From the NCBI GenBank assembly GCA_017474045.1, contig JAFUHX010000060.1, positions 1-45,257 of the forward strand: a stretch of DNA of 45,257 bases. The letters are read 5' to 3'. The translations under genes and the position numbers were made by a program. The number at the start of each line of letters is the position of its first letter. Within the stretch, counting starts at the first letter, position 1. Below are positions 276-29,680 of the stretch, one piece after another. Source of the DNA: Clostridia bacterium (GTDB taxonomy: Bacteria; Bacillota; Clostridia; Oscillospirales; Acutalibacteraceae). The notes below the pieces were generated by a model. The model was given only the letters and a program-made list of their open reading frames with translations, searched no databases and had not been told where the DNA came from.

Positions 276-608
276 ATGTCAGAAGAAGCTTTCGAAAATC
301 TCAAAGCAAGTATGCCGGAGCTAGCTCGCAAAAGCTACGGTGAAGGCAGTGGCTCTGAACTTGAAGTACGAAGAGATAAAAATAAAAATCCTAAATATCC
401 ACCCAAAATGGCATTTTTCGGATCTTCCAGCAGATTTATTTACACACTTGTTCATGAAAAAATGAAGGATGAAAACTTTGTGTTTGAACTTCAGTTGCCA
501 ACAAAAGTCGGCGGCACAGCAAACCTTGGATTTGTAAAACTTCAGTTTAACAGCCACCGGATACTGATTCCGATGGCTGTTTCAGCTTATTTAACTTTGA
601 CGCCCTGA
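276..608 (+). pseudogene. Unrecognised ORF beside the IS end, probably a truncated gene fragment
   Basis: This encodes 110 residues with an acidic N-terminus, a G-S-G-S-E-L segment (about 23-28), P-P-K-M-A-F-F-G-S-S-S-R (42-53) and F-E-L-Q-L-P-T-K-V-G-G-T-A-N-L (69-83). I do not recognise the family for certain; the layout faintly recalls the N-terminal part of some restriction-nuclease-like proteins. No Shine-Dalgarno precedes the ATG, and an in-frame TGA lies 19 bp upstream. The last 20 residues are encoded by the hairpin at 551-579, and the ORF overlaps the end of the convergent LRR gene by 22 bp. So the C-terminus is unlikely to be native. The most likely reading is a decayed fragment left beside the IS insertion. 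Confidence 0.3.
551..579. terminator. Hairpin at the end of the LRR/FN3 gene
   Basis: CAGCCA (551-556) pairs with TGGCTG (574-579), and CGGA (558-561) pairs with TCCG (569-572), with one mismatch between the stems. It lies 8 bp past the stop of the leftward LRR gene. The T-tract is weak on both strands (TTAAAC leftward, TTTCAGCTT rightward). Confidence 0.4.
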
Positions 609-3600
609 ACAGCACTGTAACTGCCGTAGATTTTTTTACCGTTAACAGTCTTATATGCTCTGACCTTGAAGTAGTAAGTCTTCTTACTTGTAAGCTTATT
701 CTTTGTAGCTTTTATTACATTTGCCTTGGTTGTTGCTATCTTCTTGTAACCGCTTTCCTTCTTCGATGAGCCGTAAACCTCATAACCTGTTTCCCCTGCA
801 ATATTTGTCCACGATACATTTGCAACACCTTTCTTGGTTGATGTTACCTTCAATGTGGGTATTGCAAGTTTGGTTGTAACTTTAACAAGAGACGAAACCT
901 TACCGTAATAAGTCTTCTTTCCAGGTTTATTATAGGCTTTGACTGCAAATTGATATTCGGTAGCAGGGTTGAGCTTTTTAACGGTATAGGATGTTTTTGT
1001 TGTTTTTCCCAGAGAAGTGTACTTCTCGGTTTTTGTATTATATGAGAACACTTCATAACCGGTTATGTTGCTTACCTTTTTCCATGAAAGCTTAACGGTT
1101 TGTGTATAAACCTTGGCTTTTACATTCTTAACCTGACCGGGAGTATATGACACCTTTGAGGTTGTGACAGTAAAAGTTTTAAACTTCGGGGCAAGAACTT
1201 TCTTTTCGCCGTCAAGAACGTAAGCTCTCACTGCAAAAGTGTACTTCGTATTTGCTTTCAGGTTTTTCACAGTATAAGTAAGCTTTGATGTGTCTGTAAG
1301 CTTTTTCCATTTACCGGATACTTTTTGGAATACCCTATAACCCGAAGCACCGGCAACTTTATTCCAATTGAGAGTCACGGATGAGCTTGTTTTGGTTGCG
1401 GTAATTTTTGCGGTTGCGGTCAACTTGGGAAGCGGAGAGTTAGTTGTAACCTTAACTGTTGATGATGCTGAACTCCAGAGCGTATTACCGTTCAACTTCT
1501 TATACGCTCTCAGGCGGAATTTATAAGTTGTACCCGCCTTGAGATTTCCTACTGTGTAGGTTACAGTATCCGGTTTGGTAATTGTGGCAATTCTTGACCA
1601 TGAGCCTGACTTATACTGATACACCGTGCATCCGCTTACTCCCGGCACCTTATTCCAATTGAGTCTGATTGTATCTGTTGACTTTGAGGTTGAGGTTATT
1701 TTAGGCGTTGTCGGCTTTGTTGTTGCATCAAACACAGCATATTCTGTAGACCAGAGAACAAAGGCACCTTTACTTATATAAGTCTTTACGGCAAAACTGT
1801 ATTTTGTACCGTTGTCAAGCCCTGTGATCTTATAAGTATTTGCCTGAAGTGTTTTCAAGGATTTCCAATTCTCATCCTTTTTAATGTAAACTCTGTATCC
1901 GCCTGCTCCGCTGACCTCTGACCATTTAAGAGTAACGCTGTCGGAAGTAATCTGTGAAGCCTCTATTTTCTTGGGTGGATTTAACATCTCGGGGCGGTAT
2001 CCGTAATAAACAACAACTGTTTCAAGGCCGATATTTTTATTCTGTGTAATAAATGTGTTCCAGTTTTCTTCTGTTCCGCTATAAAGAACAATCTCAATAT
2101 TATCACATTCCATAAATGCCCATTCAGAAACATCGGAAAGTGAAGGATGTAAATAAACAGTTTTAAGTGCCGAACAATACTCAAAAGCACCTAAACCGAC
2201 ATGTTTCACATTAGCTTTTAATTCAAGGGTTGTAATCGACCTGCAGGACATAAATGCACTGTCTTCAATTGTTTCAAGCGAATCCGGCAACTCTAAATTC
2301 TTAATATTACAAGCCTGAAATGCACCTTCGCCTATTTCAACAAGTGTCGACGGGAATGTTACCGTTTCAATCTCTCCACGGTGGGAAAAAGCATATTCAC
2401 ATATACGAGTTACACCCTCCGGAATTACAAGATTACTTTTCAAAGGCTCACCTGCGATATACATATTATCAGCAAAATAGTTGGGGTTGGTTGCCTGGGC
2501 TTCACAAAGAGGAAGAAACGCTATAGCAAGATAAGCAGGTAGATCATTTACATAAAAGTCAACCACAGCGGTAGATTTGTAGAACACATTTTTCAACATT
2601 CTCTTTATGCCGGAGTTGAATGTAACCTTCGCAAGCTTGCCACAGTATGAAAAAGCGTAATTTTTTATTTCCATAACTGCCGGTTTACCCACATCGTCAC
2701 CCACAGTAAGTGCTGTAAGAGAGCCACAGGAAGCAAAAGCATACTCATCTATAAGCTTCACTGTTGAAGGTATAACAACACCGATAAGTCCTGTTTTATA
2801 AAAAGCATTTTTACCTATTTCCTCAATACCGCTATAGAAAACAACCTCTTTCAGATTGCTGTGTTTATAAAAAGCCCTGTTCTCAATTCTCTTCACCCCG
2901 TAACCGAAGGTGATTTTCTCCAATGAACTACAGTTAAGTGATGCTGCAGTTATTACAGCCACCGGTTCGGCTTTTTCGGTAAGACTTCCTACCACAGCTT
3001 CTTTAAGCGAACTACCACTGAAAGCTCCGCTACCTATTGAGGTTGTTGCGGGAATTGTTATCTTTTTAAGAGTTTTGCAGTTCTCAAAGGCACCAGACGG
3101 AATTAACTTCACACTTTCGGGTATAACAAGTGTTTCAACCGGGCTTCCGCCTATATTAAGCGTAGCTCCGTAACCCATCGGATTACTATAGCCGGTATAA
3201 TCATCTGATTCAAAAGTTACATTAAACCAATCTTCAATAGTTTTGGCTTGTATCTGCATCTGAGAGCTTTTATTAAAAGCTGCTTCACCCATCTTCAAAG
3301 GCTTGCCTGAAAGAATGAGATTTTTAATACCTGCATAACCGTAAAATGCCATTGGCTTGATTTGAGAAACAGACTCAGGTATTTCGAGATCTGTAAGAGG
3401 CTTTCCGTCAATATACAAAACTGCTCCGTTAAAAAGAGGATTAGAACTGCCTGTAGCAAATTCGATCGAAAGCCAGCTTTCAATTGAAGGAGCATATACA
3501 CTTTCTATAGATGGGCAGCCTGAAAATGCATCCTGACCAATGCTTGTGATCTTATCGTTCACAGTTACAGTTTTTATGATTTTACAATCCTTAAAAGCAT

Positions 3601-5542
3601 TGGCAGGTATTTCAGTAATACTATCATCCAAAACCAGGTTTTCTACACTTGAACCGTTTATGTACAGATTTTCTGCAACTGTCATAGGATTTGATCCACT
3701 GTCTGCAAATTTAATACCGAACCATGTATCAAAGCTGTCAATATAAACATCCTTCAGGTTGTTACAACCCGAAAACGCACCTTTAGCAATACTTGTAATC
3801 TTACCGTGAAGAGTTACAGTTTTTAAACTTTTACAATTCTTAAAAGCATAAGCAGGTATTTCAGTAACACTTCCATCCAGAACAATATCTTCCGGAACCG
3901 AACCGTTTATATACAGATTTTCTGCAACTGTCATGGGATTTGATGCACCGTCTGCAAATTTAATTCCGAGCCATGTATCAAGGCTGTCAGCATAAACATT
4001 CTTCAGATTGTCACAACCTGAAAAACAATTATTACCTATTGATATTCCGCCATGATTGAACGTTACACTTTCAAGTTTATCGTAATTGCTGAACGTACCT
4101 GAAGAAATATCAGTTACACCTTCAGGAACAACTAAATTTACAAGGGGTTCTCCATTAATGTATATCGTATCGAGATTACAGCTTTCTTTTACTGCACTGA
4201 CTCTGATAAACGTTTCTATATCAGGCACATAAACCTCTTTGATATTAGTACAGTTTATAAAGGATCCAAGATCCGCACTCGTTACACCACTGTGAAATGT
4301 TACGCTTTCAATTGTTTTAATGTTGTATAATCCGTAAACGGGAATTCTTGTTACAGATTCAGGTATAACCAGATCAACCAACAGTTCACCTGCAACATAA
4401 AGATTTTGAGCATGATGCATCGGATTGGCATAATAGGTTGCCTTTCCATTGCTTGTGTATATATTGTCACATATTTTCAGCCAGGTTTCCAGACTGTCAA
4501 CATAAACATTTTCAATGCCTGTTCCGTAAAATGCATTATCTCCGATATGTTCAATTCCCGAATGAAGTGTTATGCTGTTCAAAGCATCGTAATAAGCAAA
4601 AGCCTTTTTGCTTATTCTTGTACAGGTTGAGGGAAAAACATAATCACCCGTTACAGGTTCTCCATCTATATACAAACATTTTTCATACTGTAAAGGACCA
4701 CTTTTATGTTCAAAATTCATCCAGGTTTCAAAGGAATCCACATAAAAAGCTTCAAACTTATTATAAGGTAAAATCCAATTATAACCGAATTCCTTTATCG
4801 GTGTTGTAAAAGTTATACTTTTAACATGTAAGTCTGCGAATGCCCTGTTGGGTATGATGTCAATGCCTTCAGGAAGAACTATATCAACTGGTTTTTCATT
4901 GTTAATATATATTTCAGCATACATAGGTATATCTATGTTACAAATTCTGAACCAGGTTTCTATATCAGGCACATAAATTTTTTCAACGCAACCAAGACTG
5001 AAAGCGACATCTGATACAGATTGAATACTTTCAGAAAAAGTAACACTTTTAAAACCCTTCAGTCCAAAAACATAGTGATCTATTACTGTTACGCTATCAG
5101 GAACAACAACATCAGTAACAGCTTTTCCGTCAACATACAAGGTAGCACCAGAAATACAACTTGATGAATTGCCCCGCAATTTAATATTAAGCCATGTTTC
5201 AAGACTGTCTACATAAATCTGTTTAAAGTCATCCATTTTGTTTATATTTTCCAATACCTTTATTGTTTTAGGTAAAGTTATCGCCGTAACGCTACGGCCT
5301 ATAGTCGCAGCATAAGTTTCCATATTCAATGAAGTTACCGGATATCCGCCCAGAGTTTCAGGAATAACAATATGTTTTTTTCCGGTGCTGTCAACTCTTC
5401 GGATTATCGCTTCTCCATCAACAACCTTATAAAAAAAGTCGCCTTCCCAAGTTGCTGTGTCTGCAGCAGATGAGTTAACACTTAAAACAAATAACGTAAT
5501 AAGCAACAAAAAGGCTGCAATAAATATCCTGTTTTTTCTCAT
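587..5542 (-). CDS. Giant secreted BspA-type LRR protein with C-terminal FN3 repeats
   Basis: The protein has 1651 residues, counted from the ATG at 5542, which has GGAGGAG 8 bp upstream; an earlier in-frame start has no such site. Residues 1-26 form a signal peptide (MRKNR, hydrophobic core, SSAADT). Residues about 30-1180 are LRR_5/BspA-type repeats built on I-P-x-x-V-T-x-I-x-x-x-A-F and L-K-x-V-x-x. They are interrupted about ten times by an insert with a [VY]-x-S-[LIF]-[ED]-[TS]-W core followed by L-Y-[IV]-[ND]-G. Residues about 1186-1651 are five FN3 domains, each with a W-x-K-V-x-G-x-x-G-Y core and a Y-x-F-x-V-R-A-Y strand. BspA-like LRR proteins are usually surface adhesins or interaction proteins. 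There is no LPXTG or transmembrane anchor at the C-terminus. The gene lies 19 bp behind the sensor kinase, so co-transcription is likely. Confidence 0.85.
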   Translation of the reverse strand: MRKNRIFIAAFLLLITLFVLSVNSSAADTATWEGDFFYKVVDGEAIIRRVDSTGKKHIVIPETLGGYPVTSLNMETYAATIGRSVTAITLPKTIKVLENINKMDDFKQIYVDSLETWLNIKLRGNSSSCISGATLYVDGKAVTDVVVPDSVTVIDHYVFGLKGFKSVTFSESIQSVSDVAFSLGCVEKIYVPDIETWFRICNIDIPMYAEIYINNEKPVDIVLPEGIDIIPNRAFADLHVKSITFTTPIKEFGYNWILPYNKFEAFYVDSFETWMNFEHKSGPLQYEKCLYIDGEPVTGDYVFPSTCTRISKKAFAYYDALNSITLHSGIEHIGDNAFYGTGIENVYVDSLETWLKICDNIYTSNGKATYYANPMHHAQNLYVAGELLVDLVIPESVTRIPVYGLYNIKTIESVTFHSGVTSADLGSFINCTNIKEVYVPDIETFIRVSAVKESCNLDTIYINGEPLVNLVVPEGVTDISSGTFSNYDKLESVTFNHGGISIGNNCFSGCDNLKNVYADSLDTWLGIKFADGASNPMTVAENLYINGSVPEDIVLDGSVTEIPAYAFKNCKSLKTVTLHGKITSIAKGAFSGCNNLKDVYIDSFDTWFGIKFADSGSNPMTVAENLYINGSSVENLVLDDSITEIPANAFKDCKIIKTVTVNDKITSIGQDAFSGCPSIESVYAPSIESWLSIEFATGSSNPLFNGAVLYIDGKPLTDLEIPESVSQIKPMAFYGYAGIKNLILSGKPLKMGEAAFNKSSQMQIQAKTIEDWFNVTFESDDYTGYSNPMGYGATLNIGGSPVETLVIPESVKLIPSGAFENCKTLKKITIPATTSIGSGAFSGSSLKEAVVGSLTEKAEPVAVITAASLNCSSLEKITFGYGVKRIENRAFYKHSNLKEVVFYSGIEEIGKNAFYKTGLIGVVIPSTVKLIDEYAFASCGSLTALTVGDDVGKPAVMEIKNYAFSYCGKLAKVTFNSGIKRMLKNVFYKSTAVVDFYVNDLPAYLAIAFLPLCEAQATNPNYFADNMYIAGEPLKSNLVIPEGVTRICEYAFSHRGEIETVTFPSTLVEIGEGAFQACNIKNLELPDSLETIEDSAFMSCRSITTLELKANVKHVGLGAFEYCSALKTVYLHPSLSDVSEWAFMECDNIEIVLYSGTEENWNTFITQNKNIGLETVVVYYGYRPEMLNPPKKIEASQITSDSVTLKWSEVSGAGGYRVYIKKDENWKSLKTLQANTYKITGLDNGTKYSFAVKTYISKGAFVLWSTEYAVFDATTKPTTPKITSTSKSTDTIRLNWNKVPGVSGCTVYQYKSGSWSRIATITKPDTVTYTVGNLKAGTTYKFRLRAYKKLNGNTLWSSASSTVKVTTNSPLPKLTATAKITATKTSSSVTLNWNKVAGASGYRVFQKVSGKWKKLTDTSKLTYTVKNLKANTKYTFAVRAYVLDGEKKVLAPKFKTFTVTTSKVSYTPGQVKNVKAKVYTQTVKLSWKKVSNITGYEVFSYNTKTEKYTSLGKTTKTSYTVKKLNPATEYQFAVKAYNKPGKKTYYGKVSSLVKVTTKLAIPTLKVTSTKKGVANVSWTNIAGETGYEVYGSSKKESGYKKIATTKANVIKATKNKLTSKKTYYFKVRAYKTVNGKKIYGSYSAVQGVKVK

Positions 5543-5561
5543 AATTTTCTCCTCCTTCACA

Positions 5562-6866
5562 TCAATGTTTATTATTCGGCAACATTGCCACCGATATAAA
5601 TTCACCGTCAGCATAATGGCTCTTCATTGTACCACCATAGCTTTCAGTAGTTTTTGTGATGTTTTTAATTCCGTATCCGTGTAAGCCTGACGGATCATTT
5701 TTGGTGCTCACAAGCTCATTATTACTGTTGAAAGGATTTTCACGGCAGGTGTTTATAACCTTGAAAAATACAAAGGACTCCTTTTGCCAGATTTCAACCT
5801 TTATCTTCTTTTCATCGTTATCGGAAAGCTTCATACAAGCTTCAATAGCATTGTCAATCTGATTTGCAAGAACCGCACAAATGTCAACCGAAGATATATA
5901 AAGTTCGGAAGAAAGCACTACCCTGTGGAAAAATTCTATATTATGCCTTTTTGCCTGTACAATTTTACAGTTGATAATAGAATCAATTACAGCGTTTCCG
6001 CAAAGCGAATACTGAGCCTGATCGTAAGATGCCTGCAAAAGCTCGTCAATATACAGCTTTGCTTTTTCATCCTTTTCAAGCATTCCTCTTAATGTTAAAA
6101 GGTGATTTTTAAAATCGTGAACCTGCTGACGGATTGTACTATGAGAAGCTTCAAGCTGATGAAAATTCTTTTCCATAATTGAATTAGTTGTCGCCATAAG
6201 TTCAGCCTCACGCTTTTCCTTTTCGTATCCGGTTTTCACAGTAACGGCAAAAACAGTTGCGATAAGTGACACAACTATAAAAAGAATTGAAAAGAACGAA
6301 GTCATCTGCATCATAGCAACGTAATCACTGATTATAATTCCTGCAAAACTGTACATTATTGAGTATGCACCGATAGAAATTGCCAGAATTAAGCCCAGAT
6401 ATTTTCTGCCGAGTTCAGAGAAAAACGGATAAAGCTTCCACATCAAACTAAAGATAAGGATTTTTACAATTTCGTTAGCTACAAGAAATACAGCATAGTA
6501 AGAATCCTGTATATCAAACCGTTCTGCTATAAACTCGTAGCCGTATGTAAGTACATAATTTAGTGCATGAAGGAAAAACCAGGTTGTTGCAATAGATGCA
6601 CTTCGCAAAAGCATACTGCCCTTTGAAACTGCAAAATTAACAGCAAAGGAAAAACCAACCGCAATAGCAAGCATCAGAACCACAGGAACTCCAAGACTGC
6701 TGACACAGGTCATCAGTAAAGTATAAACACATCCAAAAACTGCAACCAAAGCAAAGTGCCTGATTTTTTTGTATTTTTTACCGCACATACTACCTGACAC
6801 TGTAAACACAATAAAGCCTTCAGCAAAAACAGTTAACAGTCCAATGATTTTATAGAACGTTTCCAT
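5562..6866 (-). CDS. GHKL-family sensor histidine kinase (AgrC/VirS type)
   Basis: The protein has 434 residues from the ATG at 6866 (GGGGTGA upstream). A TTG at 6893 would overlap the regulator gene. Residues 1-210 hold about six hydrophobic segments, typical of peptide-sensing kinases. The cytoplasmic part has a Q-Q-V-H250-D-F-K-N-H-L phospho-acceptor box. It also has the ATPase N-box N335-x-x-D-N-A-I-E-A and a G-box G-Y-G-I-K-N-I near the C-terminus. The family autophosphorylates and passes phosphate to a LytTR regulator. The regulator gene is immediately upstream, its stop 14 bp before this start. No agrB/agrD-like peptide gene is seen nearby, so the ligand is unknown. Downstream is the LRR/FN3 surface gene, a candidate output. 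Confidence 0.88.
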   Translation of the reverse strand: METFYKIIGLLTVFAEGFIVFTVSGSMCGKKYKKIRHFALVAVFGCVYTLLMTCVSSLGVPVVLMLAIAVGFSFAVNFAVSKGSMLLRSASIATTWFFLHALNYVLTYGYEFIAERFDIQDSYYAVFLVANEIVKILIFSLMWKLYPFFSELGRKYLGLILAISIGAYSIMYSFAGIIISDYVAMMQMTSFFSILFIVVSLIATVFAVTVKTGYEKEKREAELMATTNSIMEKNFHQLEASHSTIRQQVHDFKNHLLTLRGMLEKDEKAKLYIDELLQASYDQAQYSLCGNAVIDSIINCKIVQAKRHNIEFFHRVVLSSELYISSVDICAVLANQIDNAIEACMKLSDNDEKKIKVEIWQKESFVFFKVINTCRENPFNSNNELVSTKNDPSGLHGYGIKNITKTTESYGGTMKSHYADGEFISVAMLPNNKH

Positions 6867-6880
6867 TTCATCACCCCGAT

Positions 6881-7594
6881 TTATAAACCCCAATACTCAA
6901 GTAAAAATTTTTTAACATCATGAAGGCATCTTCGACTTATTTGCAAAACCTTACCGTTTTTCATTTTCAACTCATAGCCCGAAAGCTGAGAAATATAATC
7001 CACATTAACAAAACAACCACGGTCAATAAACAAAAATCTGTTATCGTCGATAGCATTATAAAATTCTGTTATACCTCTGTTGTCAGTTAACTCACCCTGA
7101 GAGTCAGTTGCAATCACAAGCTGCCTTGAAATTCGGCTTACACAAATTATGTCACTGTAACTCACACGCCAGTATTCGCTGTATCGTCGTATTATTATCG
7201 TCTTTTCATCGTTTTTTTCAACCTGGTACAACGCACTGTCAAGAGCTTCCTCCAGCTCCCGTTCTATATTCATCTTAAGTATATATCTGAGAGCTCTTGA
7301 CTTGTAACCCATTGTTGCCATACTTTCCACAGATGTCAGAAATATAATAACCGCTGTATCGGTATATTTTCTTATCTCTTCGGCAAGTTCAAATCCGTTC
7401 ATACCGGGCATCGAAACATCAAGAATATAAATATCAGCAAGCTTGTTATCCAAAAGCTCATAAGAAAGAAGTTCCGGCTTTACAAACGTAATAACCTCAA
7501 AGTCGATGTGCCTTTTAAGTTCAAATTTTTCAAGCTCTCTTTTCAGCACTTCAACATCCTGTTTACTGTCATCGCAAATGTTTATACGTATCAT
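6881..7594 (-). CDS. LytTR-family response regulator (AgrA type)
   Basis: The protein has 237 residues. Residues 1-120 form a receiver domain: acidic pair D8-D9, phospho-acceptor D59 in I-L-D-V-S-M-P-G-M-N-G, a Thr in I-I-F-L-T-S and a Lys in L-R-Y-I-L-K. Residues about 135-235 form a LytTR DNA-binding domain (I-I-I-R-R-Y-S-E-Y-W, F-L-F-I-D-R-G-C-F-V-N-V-D-Y-I, I-S-R-R-C). LytTR proteins bind pairs of direct repeats about two helical turns apart. Such a pair, together with a promoter, lies directly upstream (see 7641-7708), so autoregulation is likely. It is the first gene of a run with the sensor kinase and the LRR protein. Confidence 0.92.
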   Translation of the reverse strand: MIRINICDDSKQDVEVLKRELEKFELKRHIDFEVITFVKPELLSYELLDNKLADIYILDVSMPGMNGFELAEEIRKYTDTAVIIFLTSVESMATMGYKSRALRYILKMNIERELEEALDSALYQVEKNDEKTIIIRRYSEYWRVSYSDIICVSRISRQLVIATDSQGELTDNRGITEFYNAIDDNRFLFIDRGCFVNVDYISQLSGYELKMKNGKVLQISRRCLHDVKKFLLEYWGL

Positions 7595-7640
7595 TAAAAC
7601 AACCCCAAAAAGAGTATTAAATAAGTTATTCTACGATTGT

Positions 7641-7669
7641 ATAATAACACAGTACACAGCATATTTCAA
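7641..7669 (-). promoter_or_regulatory. SigA-type promoter of the two-component/LRR operon
   Basis: Leftward TTGAAA (7664-7669), a 17-bp spacer, then TATTAT (7641-7646). Start of transcription is expected near 7634, about 40 bp before the regulator's ATG. The direct repeat at 7675-7708 ends 5 bp upstream of the -35 box, a good position for an activator. Confidence 0.7.
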
Positions 7670-7674
7670 TTCTT

Positions 7675-7708
7675 TGTCTTTTCGGTAGATATACTATGTC
7701 TTTTCGGT
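7675..7708 (-). promoter_or_regulatory. Tandem ACCGAAAAGACA direct repeat, probable LytTR operator
   Basis: Two perfect copies of ACCGAAAAGACA (leftward strand) lie at 7697-7708 and 7675-7686, exactly 22 bp apart start to start. LytTR regulators (AgrA, ComE, VirR) are known to bind pairs of roughly 9-12-bp direct repeats separated by about two helical turns. The pair abuts the -35 of the operon encoding a LytTR regulator. I saw no third copy elsewhere in the window. Binding is inferred. Confidence 0.65.
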
Positions 7709-7760
7709 TAAAATTAAAATAAAAAACTGTGATTTTGTAACACCGACATCACTCAAGATA

Positions 7761-7820
7761 CTACTCACAACCCTCCTGAAAAGTTAAAGTTTTAGTTGCC
7801 GTCATCTTCAATTTCTTCAT
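7761..7820 (-). pseudogene. Possible decayed N-terminus of a tyrosine recombinase
   Basis: A leftward ATG at 7820 reads MKKLKMTATKTLTFQEGCE then TAG. Continuing through that stop gives Y-L-E, then TGA, then Cys. The pattern T-F-x-E-G-C-E-x-Y-L-E-x-C resembles the start of the SAM-like N-terminal domain of phage-type integrases. No recognisable recombinase sequence follows. This could equally be a chance 19-codon ORF; the resemblance is from memory only. Confidence 0.25.
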
Positions 7821-7850
7821 CAAAAATCCCTCACATTCACATAAAAAAAG

Positions 7851-7892
7851 ATAGACACATCATCTGAGAAAACTCAAAAATGATGTGTCTAT
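7851..7892 (-). terminator. Rho-independent terminator of the Fe-S/GGGtGRT operon
   Basis: ATAGACACATCAT (7851-7863) pairs perfectly over 13 bp with 7880-7892, with a 16-nt loop. Reading leftward the stem is followed by CTTTTTTTAT. It lies 88 bp beyond the GGGtGRT gene's stop. A shorter T-run on the other side means it may also work rightward. Confidence 0.8.
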
Positions 7893-7980
7893 GTTTTTAA
7901 TGTTTAATTTTCACGTGATGAGATTTTTTAAAGAACTTCAGTAGTCTTAAAAAGTCTCACAAAGCCTTGTAAATCAAGGA

Positions 7981-8979
7981 TTATTTTGAAGCCTCTTCAA
8001 TAGCAACTGCACAAGCAACAGTCATACCAACCATGGGGTTGTTACCTGCGCCGATAAGGCCCATCATTTCAACGTGTGCGGGAACTGAAGAAGAACCTGC
8101 AAACTGAGCGTCGGAGTGCATACGGCCCATTGTGTCGGTCATACCGTAGGAAGCAGGACCGGCTGCCATGTTATCGGGATGAAGAGTACGGCCGGTACCG
8201 CCGCCGGAAGCAACTGAGAAGTAGCTTACGCCGTTTTCAACGCACCACTTCTTATATGTTCCTGCAACAGGATGCTGGAATCTGGTGGGGTTGGTTGAGT
8301 TACCGGTGATTGAAACGCCAACATTTTCAAGCTTCATAATAGCAACGCCTTCGGGAACGTTGTCTGAACCGTAGCAACGAACCTTTGCTCTGTCGCCGGT
8401 TGAATATGCTGTTTCGTTAACAACCTTAACGGTTTCTGAATAGGGATCAAACTCAGTCTGAACATAGGTGAAGCCGTTGATTCTTGAAATAATCATTGCG
8501 GCGTCTTTTCCAAGACCGTTAAGAATAACGCGAAGGGGTTCTGTTCTGACCTTGTTTGCGTTAAGAGCAATTTTAATTGCGCCTTCAGCAGCAGCAAAGC
8601 TTTCGTGACCTGCAAGGAAGCAGAAGCATTTTGTTTCTTCTGAAAGAAGCATTTTGCCAAGATTGCCGTGGCCAAGACCAACCTGACGGTTGTCAGCAAC
8701 TGAGCCGGGAATACAGAAAGCCTGAAGACCTTCGCCGATTGCAGCAGCAGCGTCAGCAGCCTTTACGCAACCCTTTTTGATTGCAATAGCGCAACCTACT
8801 GTGTAGGCCCACTTTGCGTTTTCAAAAGCGATGGGCTGAGTTTCTTCAACAATTTTATAGGGGTCGATGCCTTTTGCAGCACAGATATCTTTACATTCTT
8901 CAACAGAAGAAATTCCGTAGTTGTTAAGAACTGCAAGAATTTTGTCAATTCTTCTCTCATAGTTTTCAAATAAAGCCAT
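7981..8979 (-). CDS. GGGtGRT protein (uncharacterised glycine-rich family)
   Basis: The protein has 332 residues and starts MALFENYERR. AAGGAGG lies 9 bp before the ATG. The signature G-G-G-T-G-R-T spans residues 259-265, followed by L-H-P-D-N. A second conserved-looking stretch is G-L-I-G-A-G-N-N-P-M-V-G near the C-terminus. The family is named after this motif and has no established biochemical role. It is typically paired with an Fe-S scaffold-like gene, as here (14 bp upstream, same strand). The protein is cytoplasmic by appearance, with no signal peptide or membrane segment. A role linked to metal or Fe-S handling is inferred only from the gene pair. Confidence 0.85.
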   Translation of the reverse strand: MALFENYERRIDKILAVLNNYGISSVEECKDICAAKGIDPYKIVEETQPIAFENAKWAYTVGCAIAIKKGCVKAADAAAAIGEGLQAFCIPGSVADNRQVGLGHGNLGKMLLSEETKCFCFLAGHESFAAAEGAIKIALNANKVRTEPLRVILNGLGKDAAMIISRINGFTYVQTEFDPYSETVKVVNETAYSTGDRAKVRCYGSDNVPEGVAIMKLENVGVSITGNSTNPTRFQHPVAGTYKKWCVENGVSYFSVASGGGTGRTLHPDNMAAGPASYGMTDTMGRMHSDAQFAGSSSVPAHVEMMGLIGAGNNPMVGMTVACAVAIEEASK

Positions 8980-27475: not shown

Positions 27476-29680
27476 TTACCATGCAAAAACATAGAGATAT
27501 GAATAGCTTCCCGAGAAAACAACATCTTCGCCGTCAACGGTTATAATGGCATTGAAATCAACTGAAACTTCAAGAAGATCAAGAAGACCGTTGTTGACCT
27601 TGGTTAAATCGAGAACCTTGGTGGTGTAAGAAACACCCTGAAGTGAATAGCCGCCGTTTTCACAAATTGAAACAAAATCAACCGACGGAGTGAAGTGGCA
27701 GGCTGTTTTGTCTTTCATTTCAAAGCTGAGGTCAAAGCCTGAGCCGTTGAGAGAGTAGTCTGCACTTTCCGCAACAATGTTTTCCGAAGAGAATGCGAGG
27801 CTTTTCTTTTCCGGTGAAATAACTTCTGCGAGGCTGAGTCCATTCTGGTTAACACCGTCAGAGAAGGTGTAATATTTTTTGCCGGTTGCCAGAGAGGCTT
27901 CAATTTCGTCACAGATTAAAGCGGTTTTTTCTGAGCTGATATTTGCAGTAACCTTAGCTGACTGAGGGGTTACAAAAAGAGAATAACCGTTTTTAACAAG
28001 TGAGGTTTTTTCAAGGGCAGTTGAAAAATAGTTAACTGCTTCTGTGTTGTTTGTGGGAAGAGCCTTGGTTTTAACGGTGTAGTCAGAAGAATAATCGCTG
28101 AAGAAGGTTTTTGAAAAATGCACGCCGACAGCTCTTATTCTGAAGGTGTAGGAAGCTCCGTTTTCAAGGTCATCAAAAAGATAAGATGTTGCGCTTCCTG
28201 ATGAAATCTTAACGGTTTTAAAGTCTGAACCGGTTTTGCAATAGGCTATTTCATAGCCGTGAGCACCGTTAAGCTTGTTCCATGAAAGAAGAATACTCTT
28301 TGCCGTAATGTCATCATCGGTGGTTTTCAGACCGGTGGGAACAGAAGGCTTGGTTGCGGTGTAGTTAGGTTCGCTGTGGGTGGGGCAAAGATATTTTTTG
28401 CCCGAATATTTCAGAAACGCCTTAACAACAAAGCGATATTGAGTATTGGGGGAAAGGTCTGAAACGGTGTAGCTCAATCCGGTGGTGCTTCCGACAAAAG
28501 AAAGAGCCTTTGAAGAGTCGTTATAGCGATAAATCTCATAGCCTGAAGCGTTAGAAGCCTTAGCCCATGAAATCGAAACGCTGTCAGTAGTGCTTGAAAC
28601 AAATTTCGGTGTTGAAACAACGCCGGGTTTGAGAACGCTGAAACTGAAGGTCTTTGATGTGGGGCTATAGATGTTTTCTTTTCCCACTTTAACATAGGCT
28701 TTAATTTTGAACTTCGTTGTGCTTCCCAATTCAAGAGAAGAGAAAGTGAGGGCTGTTTTTGAAGTGTTTGTTCTGGCCCACTTCTTTGTTTTTACGTTGT
28801 ATTTATAAACTGCATATTTTGTTGCGCCCTCAGAAGCGGTCCATGAAAGCTTGAAGGAGGTTGCTTTAACCTTGCTCTGAGTAATTTTTTCAATCATTGC
28901 CGGTGTAACGGTAACGGTTGTTTTAACTGTCTTCTTTGTTCCGTCTGTGGCGGTGGCTGAAATTACGCAGGTTCCGCATTTTTTCGGTGTTATAACACCT
29001 TTTGAAGAAACCGTTGCAATTTTTGAATCAGAGGTTTTAAATTTCAGCTTGCTGTTATAAACCACCGACGGCTTAACAGTTACGCTCATTTTAGCCTTTG
29101 AACCTAAAGCCACACTTAAAGTTTTGGCTGTTTTTAAAGAGGTAATTTCCATGTAGCCATATTTCAGGTCGCTCTGAGACTTAACAAAGGTTTCAGCCTT
29201 GCTTCCTTTATAGACATAAACGGTAACATTTTTGCATCCTCTGAAAACATTATCGCCGAAGGATTTTGCGTTTTCTTTAATAACAACGGTTTTAAGGTTG
29301 GTGCAATACCAGAAAACAGCATCTTTCAATGTAGTAAGCTGTTCGGGGAGAACAACCTTTTTTAAAGAAGTACATTCATTAAAAGCGGCTTCACCGATTT
29401 TTTTAACTGTGTCGGGAATGGTAACGCTTTTCATGCTTTTCTTTTGCCAGAAGGCGTAGTCGGCAATGGCAGTAACCTTCTTTTTGTTAATTTTGGTCGG
29501 AATTTTAACACTTGAGTCGTTGCCTGTGTATTCAAGAAGGGTAGCAGACGATTTTCCAACGCTGAAAACAAAATCGCCCGATGTAACCTTTTCGGCGGCA
29601 GAAGCGCTCAGACTGAAAAGGCATAGAAAACTACACAGAACAAAAATAATTCCGAGAACTCTCAAATTAGTCTTTTTCAT
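27476..29680 (-). CDS. Secreted LRR-BIG2-FN3 protein with the shared C-terminal domain
   Basis: The protein has 734 residues from the ATG at 29680, 8 nt after GGAGG. A signal peptide (1-29, ending A-S-A-A-E) is followed by BspA-type LRRs (about 35-170: V-T-I-P-D-T-V-K-K-I-G-E-A-A-F). Next is a BIG2-like bacterial Ig domain (about 180-260: S-K-I-A-T-V-S-S-K-G-V-I-T-P). Three FN3 domains follow (about 262-545). The final 185 residues are a divergent copy of the shared domain, ending S-Y-S-Y-L-Y-V-F-A-W. The order LRR, Ig, FN3 suggests an extended surface protein. It has its own promoter at 29712-29740 and heads a pair with the five-FN3 gene. Confidence 0.8.
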   Translation of the reverse strand: MKKTNLRVLGIIFVLCSFLCLFSLSASAAEKVTSGDFVFSVGKSSATLLEYTGNDSSVKIPTKINKKKVTAIADYAFWQKKSMKSVTIPDTVKKIGEAAFNECTSLKKVVLPEQLTTLKDAVFWYCTNLKTVVIKENAKSFGDNVFRGCKNVTVYVYKGSKAETFVKSQSDLKYGYMEITSLKTAKTLSVALGSKAKMSVTVKPSVVYNSKLKFKTSDSKIATVSSKGVITPKKCGTCVISATATDGTKKTVKTTVTVTPAMIEKITQSKVKATSFKLSWTASEGATKYAVYKYNVKTKKWARTNTSKTALTFSSLELGSTTKFKIKAYVKVGKENIYSPTSKTFSFSVLKPGVVSTPKFVSSTTDSVSISWAKASNASGYEIYRYNDSSKALSFVGSTTGLSYTVSDLSPNTQYRFVVKAFLKYSGKKYLCPTHSEPNYTATKPSVPTGLKTTDDDITAKSILLSWNKLNGAHGYEIAYCKTGSDFKTVKISSGSATSYLFDDLENGASYTFRIRAVGVHFSKTFFSDYSSDYTVKTKALPTNNTEAVNYFSTALEKTSLVKNGYSLFVTPQSAKVTANISSEKTALICDEIEASLATGKKYYTFSDGVNQNGLSLAEVISPEKKSLAFSSENIVAESADYSLNGSGFDLSFEMKDKTACHFTPSVDFVSICENGGYSLQGVSYTTKVLDLTKVNNGLLDLLEVSVDFNAIITVDGEDVVFSGSYSYLYVFAW

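Follow-up and report, generated by a model that had tools for sequence, protein, structure and literature searches.

A predicted autoregulatory LytTR box pair in a clostridial AgrC/AgrA-like operon with BspA-type LRR/FN3 proteins as probable output

Results and Discussion

Genes and promoter elements at the locus

The DNA analyzed here (the window) is a 45,257-nucleotide stretch from a Clostridia bacterium of the Acutalibacteraceae (contig JAFUHX010000060.1), which carries a cluster of three genes on its minus strand. The first gene (6881-7594) encodes a 237-residue response regulator whose receiver domain (Response_reg, 5.5e-13) and LytTR DNA-binding domain (5.1e-11) both score above the curated Pfam cut-offs, and in which D8, D9, D59, and K107 are invariant in an alignment of seven sequences. 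It is followed after 14 bp by a gene (5562-6866) for a 434-residue GHKL sensor kinase (HATPase_c_5, 9.6e-24) and then, after 19 bp, by a gene (587-5542) for a 1651-residue protein, the presumed output, in which the LRR_5 repeats characteristic of BspA-type LRR surface proteins (1.1e-135) are combined with fn3 domains (1.9e-35), both above cut-off. These Pfam matches confirm the gene content given by an earlier, sequence-only reading of this DNA. The N-terminus of the LRR/FN3 protein is hydrophobic by eye, and the protein is probably secreted. The kinase appears weakly AgrC-like along its full length, its match to the AgrC model NF046015 (E 9.1e-12, 44.9 bits) lying far under the cut-off of 500; likewise, the AgrA model NF046049 gives E 1.5e-8 and 34.5 bits against a cut-off of 400. 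The window contains one more LRR_5 gene (29222-29473, in a 792-aa open frame, 754 aa from the first start codon), which has no boxes of the kind described below.

On the minus strand, the regulator gene is preceded by the arrangement ACCGAAAAGACA-TAGTATATCT-ACCGAAAAGACA-AAGAA-TTGAAA-17 nt-TATTAT, with the regulator start 46 nt further on. The distal and proximal copies of the 12-mer occupy 7697-7708 and 7675-7686, respectively; they are 22 bp apart from start to start and are the only two copies in the window, both on the minus strand. The proximal copy ends 5 nt before the −35 element TTGAAA (7664-7669), lies 28 nt 5′ of the −10 element TATTAT (7641-7646), which has a TG upstream, and is separated by 80 bp from the start of the regulator gene. 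The repeat and promoter are thus as the sequence-only reading had described them.

Taken alone, the repeat is only mildly improbable and its statistics are weak. Two direct repeats of an exact 12-mer at a distance of 15-30 bp are present in the window, the other one (8622/8645) being intragenic, and at least one such repeat occurred in 20 of 200 first-order Markov copies of the window, or in 3 of 200 when the spacing was confined to 20-23 bp. Single copies with up to two mismatches are not enriched in the window (8 versus 6.48 expected), and the 2.51-Mb genome has the pair (spacer of 8-12) at this one place. A promoter scan of positions 300-8100 proves little: the promoter described here, with 10 of 12 consensus matches, was listed first, and it is one of six such sites among 32 promoter-like sites, against 22.8 (sd 5.0) expected.

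The classical LytTR consensus has a GTT core. The window boxes depart from it with a GAAA core, which speaks against their assignment to LytTR, whereas the agr-type relatives introduced below carry GTT; the boxes of G003, G218, and G043 have this GTT core and read ACCGTTTGAACA/ACCGTTGAGACA and similar. Separately, the motif LQISRRC is found close to where the LytTR domain ends in the window and in one relative, G211; it possibly co-varies with the GAAA core, and with two sequences we make no claim.

Conservation of the box pair in LRR-type relatives

Regulator orthologs (E < 1e-80) were found in 6 of the 34 genomes of the genus, including the window's own genome (G000). In four of these, hereafter the LRR-type genomes (G000, G211, G213, and G216, each split into 70 to 170 contigs; relatives that have a name are assemblies from metagenomes), the order regulator, kinase, LRR/FN3 gene is kept, the LRR gene of G216 running off its contig. 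The regulators of G211, G216, and G213 are 76%, 59%, and 55% identical to that of the window.

In all four LRR-type genomes, paired repeats lie before the regulator, just 5′ of the −35 element, in the layout of LytTR sites. Despite different DNA further upstream, G211 has ACCGAAAAGACA-10 nt-ACCAAAAGGACA, 5 nt before TTGAAT-17-TATTAT, so that the distal 12-mer and the −10 element are identical to those of the window at equivalent places. G216 and G213 carry the variants ACCATTCAGACA/ACCATACAGACA and GCCTTTCGGACG/ACCAAACAGACA, respectively, both with a period of 21 bp, and the shared design of the pairs is ACC-N4-RGACA, twice. In 15 chosen regions, 9 pairs scored at least 14 of 16, versus 1.2 expected from mononucleotide shuffles. 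Moreover, a −10-like hexamer follows at 28-31 nt in all 17 boxes or pairs examined; these sites were hand-chosen (L035 and L072 were left out), and the hexamer was called as the best one with A at position 2 and T at position 6 within 20-39 nt past the box, ties being resolved toward 28, which favors clustering.

It is because the repeat is kept in relatives that we regard it as more than chance. Although 3 of 200 simulated windows have a repeat at 20-23 bp, conservation in four genomes and recurrence at the unlinked genes described below leave a coincidental origin hardly credible. By the same token, the autoregulation that had been predicted from the window gains support, as a LytTR-type box pair on the operon's own promoter is kept in all four LRR-type genomes.

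The surroundings of the cassette differ between relatives. A GGGtGRT gene is whole upstream of the regulator in the window, and its last codons alone precede the regulator in G213 and G216, as if the cassette had moved with, or into, the 3′ end of this gene. Between the GGGtGRT gene and the regulator, the window (7740-7850) has a short degraded frame that by eye resembles the start of an integrase.

Comparison with known LytTR binding sites

In the LytTR Regulatory Systems of Streptococcus mutans, 9-bp repeats lie 11-13 bp apart and 4-11 bp before the −35 element (PMC6193735). The HdrR site, for which autoactivation was demonstrated by gel shift and reporters, reads ACCTCTTAG-12 bp-ACCACTTAA and ends 8 bp before −35 (PMC6193735). 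Expressed in the same terms, the window site consists of 9-bp cores ACCGAAAAG-13 bp-ACCGAAAAG, also 8 bp before −35. In Clostridioides difficile, changes of G-51 and G-72, one in each repeat of the RgaR site, cut reporter expression about 5-fold (PMC10602386); the corresponding G's of the window fall at about −49 and −71, assuming a start 7 nt past the −10 element. In addition, the VirR boxes of Clostridium perfringens act on one helix face (PMC2838878), and AgrA sites are direct repeats upstream of the promoter, at P2 and P3 (PMC4227749). The sequence-only reading had noted that LytTR proteins bind direct repeats at about this spacing, and the HdrR and RgaR sites fit the window geometry.

This geometry bears on the sign of the regulation. 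The regulator might bind its boxes and repress its own operon, the promoter being on by default and a signal lifting or strengthening the repression. Indeed, the promoter, at 10 of 12 consensus positions with 17-nt spacing, is close enough to consensus that it may work without the regulator. Against repression, the boxes lie entirely upstream of −35 and 28-31 nt from the −10 element (17 sites), a layout which is that of the activator sites of S. mutans and C. difficile, and several sister sites precede what by eye are poor −35 sequences. We consider negative autoregulation unlikely. Because the geometry matches known LytTR sites and the −10 distance is held at 28-31 nt, we infer an activator site with positive feedback.

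Genome scans for further targets

Six genomes were scanned for pairs of ACC-N4-RGACA with a period of 22 or 21 bp and up to two mismatches, with the reversed pattern as control and with an ORF minimum of 100 or 70 aa, depending on the match, when matches were placed. In total, 59 matches were found (21 at 22 bp and 38 at 21 bp), versus 23 in the control (14 and 9). G216 and G003 clearly exceed the control, G213 less clearly, and most matches outside G216 fall within ORFs.

The sequence-only reading had proposed such a scan for finding other targets. Applied to the genome of the window itself, it revealed no second target: of six matches (control 4), one is the operon's own pair, four are within ORFs (on contigs C58 and C75 and on the near-identical C28 and C94), and one, a doubtful site with a single mismatch (C24:389), overlaps small ORFs near genes that by eye are mobilization-like. 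This genome has nine LRR_5 genes, and for the eight outside the operon no pair scores above 5 in the 350 nt that precede the first in-frame start codon, a measure in which a misjudged start codon could hide a site. On the same scale, seven pairs score 28-36 and two behind-kinase LRR promoters score 22 and 15, a contrast that is partly built in, the weights having been trained on those same boxes. G211 has nine matches (control 4), namely the regulator, an ABC-transporter gene, and seven within ORFs, and none of its nine further LRR_5 genes outside the operon has a box pair. Since no LRR_5 gene outside the operon carries a pair in these two genomes, the link to the LRR gene there rests on the gaps of 19 bp (window) and 17 bp (G211) behind the kinase.

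The scan did find other candidate targets in the remaining LRR-type genomes. All ten matches of G216 have a period of 21 bp (control 0); a period of 22 bp gave no match (control 2). Five are intragenic, and the other five, which include all four with at most one mismatch, precede the regulator, the behind-kinase LRR gene, two unlinked genes for LRR/FN3 proteins of 850 and 758 aa, and an FN3 gene (767 aa) that starts 488 nt from its box pair. G213 has 11 matches at 21 bp (control 3) and one at 22 bp (control 4). These fall at the regulator, an unlinked 934-aa LRR/FN3 gene, an ABC-transporter gene, a doubtful site outside any ORF (C56), another doubtful one in a 114-aa ORF directly before a 296-aa gene (C61), and seven other ORFs. 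In each of the four LRR-type genomes, which have 9 (G000), 10 (G211), 14 (G213), and 17 (G216) LRR_5 genes, most of these genes lack boxes; 3 of 17 have them in G216 (one of the 17 having no upstream DNA) and 2 of 14 in G213 (one of them a single strong box).

Turning to the agr-type genomes, 13 of the 15 matches of G003 (control 1) were read: a divergent pair, C11:40603, a repeated sequence twice outside ORFs, and nine within ORFs. G218 has seven matches (control 5): a divergent pair, two at C223, three in ORFs, and one outside (C172). Further box pairs in G218 (L124:1726-1900) and G003 (L126:7480-7636, minus strand) precede a stretch sharing GATAGYTTCAACACCCTTCATA, with no obvious gene.

The ABC-transporter genes were set aside as targets of this regulator. 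The window's genome has three LytTR genes, and those on C14 and C79 do not match the regulator at 1e-15. The one on C79 is followed by a DUF3021 membrane protein gene, lies behind an ABC transporter, and has its own pair, ACCGATGAGATGC/ACCGATTAAATAA (L041:7966-8000). Similar pairs precede the ABC-transporter genes of G211 and G213 (L123, L132), that of G213 having as its homolog in G000 an operon with a LytTR gene of its own; they were not counted because the C79 LytTR gene has its own pair before an ABC-transporter operon.

The view of LRR/FN3 proteins as the output is strengthened by a gene order kept in four genomes and by boxes directly before LRR genes in two. The proposal of one giant LRR/FN3 protein as main output fits the window's genome and G211, according to the scans, but not G216 and G213, where pairs also precede other LRR/FN3 genes. 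These results also speak against the repeats being sites for another factor or integrase arm sites left by a mobile element. Fragments resembling mobile genes do lie just upstream of the operon in the window and in G211 (by eye), but the repeats stay with the regulator promoter while the flanks change and recur at unlinked LRR/FN3 genes with the −10 distance kept, which makes such an origin very improbable.

How transcription reaches the LRR gene is a further question. The boxes might govern the regulator and kinase only, with the LRR gene expressed mainly from its own promoter and its neighborhood incidental. Read-through is not universal, as the behind-kinase LRR genes of G216 and G213 have box-bearing promoters of their own (with a box pair and a single strong box, respectively), and promoter-like sequence is present in the window inside the kinase gene, with 9 of 12 matches, and inside the regulator gene (at 7221), with 10 of 12. 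On the other side stand the gaps of 19 and 17 bp and the boxes found in front of LRR genes in relatives; we give this explanation little weight, about as much as autorepression. Co-transcription of the LRR gene with the regulator and kinase genes, predicted from the 19-bp gap, is the preferred reading for the window.

AgrB behind the kinase in agr-type relatives

AgrB (PF04647) was not found in G000, G211, G213, or G216, genomes that are 94-97% complete, which leaves a small residual doubt, and it is present in both agr-type genomes, G003 and G218. Across the genus, 4 of 34 genomes have AgrB matches, three of them above cut-off. No AgrD was seen beside the operon among ORFs of at least 60 aa, and a scan for small ORFs that covered the neighborhood of agrB in six relatives, as well as the window's kinase-LRR gap, gave no convincing candidate. 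In G003 and G218, a gene for a small protein (without Pfam match in L032) is followed by regulator, kinase, and AgrB genes.

Searches with the regulator yielded matches in 23 of 200 genomes of the family (at 1e-20) and in 4 of 394 of the order (at 1e-50), as well as 18 loci among GTDB contigs, 12 of which have at least 39% identity, eight of these being, by length, the same contigs as in the G-numbered genomes. Gene order was read around 17 loci, the remaining family matches outside them all having at most 31% identity. An LRR gene follows the kinase in the window, L058, L060, and L061; AgrB does so in L032, L059, L035, L064, L067, and L072 (by Pfam) and in L036, L038, and L039 (by eye); neither is found there in L033, L034, L037, and L070. 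Hence, the earlier statement that no pheromone genes are linked holds locally, with AgrB not found anywhere in the window's genome, but does not extend to the operon's relatives, most of which have AgrB directly behind the kinase.

Since AgrB follows the kinase even at 30-40% regulator identity, its presence there is probably the older state, and the LRR gene would have replaced agrB rather than the reverse, a history in which the output probably changed and the pheromone-making protein was lost. A box pair starts at the kinase stop codon, before agrB, in L064 and L067, and G216 has the same arrangement before its LRR gene, the box ACCATTCAGACA being letter-identical in L064 and G216. The LRR gene thus appears to occupy the agrB slot behind a similar switch. 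In the tree, the four LRR-type regulators are not united and two changes are needed, so an origin of the LRR type in a single clade, by one swap event, though conceivable, is not supported.

Several further features of these loci are recorded here. Between the kinase and the next gene (agrB or LRR), four loci have a strong hairpin with the −10 element of the internal promoter in its loop. In L064 (10090-10160, z −6.0) and L072 (10090-10168, z −5.4), the 3′ arm covers the ribosome site of the next gene; in L060 (560-645, minus strand, z −4.3), this arm ends just before that site; and in L067 (4145-4230, z −7.7), the next gene starts about 145 nt on. For G213 (z −0.9) and likewise for the window gap (z −1.8), the predicted fold is weak. 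Possibly, the hairpin is an insulation device, by which read-through RNA would fold and be silenced and RNA from the internal start would escape.

G003 and G218 both have two divergent box pairs. Divergent from the agr-like operon lies a putative box-driven transcript without a clear ORF (L032:7560-7720, minus strand; L059:11250-11390, plus strand), whose first part is kept between G003 and G218 and has no Rfam match at gathering score; it is a candidate regulatory RNA of the RNAIII/SpoZ type. Four agr-like operons are headed by genes for related proteins of 165-173 aa (L032:7917-8414, L064:7483-8004, L067:1537-2058, and L072:7486-8001), all without Pfam match and, for L032 and L064, without NCBIfam match. 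In G043 (L034:9307-9339), the pair faces away from the regulator, toward a divergent gene for a dockerin-M23 peptidase, possibly another swapped output.

A probable agr-like cassette with an LRR/FN3 gene in the agrB slot

Both the type of binding site and the type of circuit are already known. Like agr of Staphylococcus aureus (AgrBDCA), the window operon combines a LytTR regulator and a weakly AgrC-like GHKL kinase behind upstream direct-repeat boxes, and relatives in its genus have AgrB and divergent box-bearing promoters, reminiscent of AgrA P2/P3. Unlike agr, it has no AgrB found, no AgrD seen, an LRR/FN3 gene in the AgrB slot, and proteins far under the cut-offs of the AgrA and AgrC models. 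VirSR of C. perfringens and RgaSR of C. difficile are likewise clostridial AgrC/AgrA-like systems with paired boxes upstream of −35 (PMC2838878, PMC10602386). Their genomes encode agrB1D1 elsewhere and their known targets are toxins, small RNAs, or agrB1D1, whereas no AgrB was found in the window's genome and the boxes precede LRR/FN3 genes. HdrRM and BrsRM of S. mutans share the repeat geometry and autoregulation (PMC6193735) but consist of a LytTR protein and its membrane inhibitor, where the window has a receiver domain and a GHKL kinase; for that reason, assignment to the LytTR Regulatory Systems (kinase-less LytTR protein plus membrane inhibitor) was rejected. Among the literature matches listed, we found no LytTR two-component operon dedicated to BspA-type LRR proteins and, including PMC7586716 as far as available, no AgrB-less AgrC/AgrA-like pair serving BspA-type LRR/FN3 proteins; subscription papers were mostly outside this scope, which is therefore no proof of absence.

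The repeats are very probably an autoregulatory LytTR box pair, as predicted from their sequence, with LRR/FN3 proteins as output. The best reading of the operon is that of an AgrC/AgrA-like system without AgrB that drives BspA-type surface proteins; it looks like a quorum-sensing switch with a changed output. In the model that we hold with considerable confidence, a box pair for the operon's own regulator would mediate signal-driven activation, positive feedback, and read-through to the LRR/FN3 gene, in a variant of an agr-like cassette with the LRR gene in the agrB slot. The AgrC-like GHKL kinase would receive a signal and phosphorylate the regulator, two molecules of which would bind the two boxes just upstream of −35 and activate the promoter. 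Activation would raise the levels of both regulator and kinase, hence the positive feedback, and transcription would read on through the 19-bp gap into the gene for the 1651-aa LRR/FN3 protein.

Because no AgrB was found, a cyclic peptide made by the cell itself is an improbable signal for the kinase; candidates are a peptide from another species, a compound of host or plant origin, and a ligand of the LRR protein. An extension of this last idea, which we think doubtful and slightly less probable than autorepression, is that the LRR/FN3 protein took over the role of the pheromone, the displayed protein or its ligand being sensed by the AgrC-like kinase. If true, a quorum sensor for a diffusible peptide would have become a positive-feedback switch that controls surface adhesion and responds to contact or to a substrate.

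To our knowledge, little is known about when BspA-type LRR proteins are made in gut Clostridia. Three of the five genus records with names are from ruminant rectum. For BspA-type LRR genes, which are numerous in these genomes, the present analysis provides a concrete regulator, a predicted binding site, and a candidate target list. Finally, a quorum-sensing cassette seems to be caught here in two states: behind similar boxes, the same slot holds either AgrB or an LRR gene. This offers a way to study how a pheromone circuit is gained and lost.
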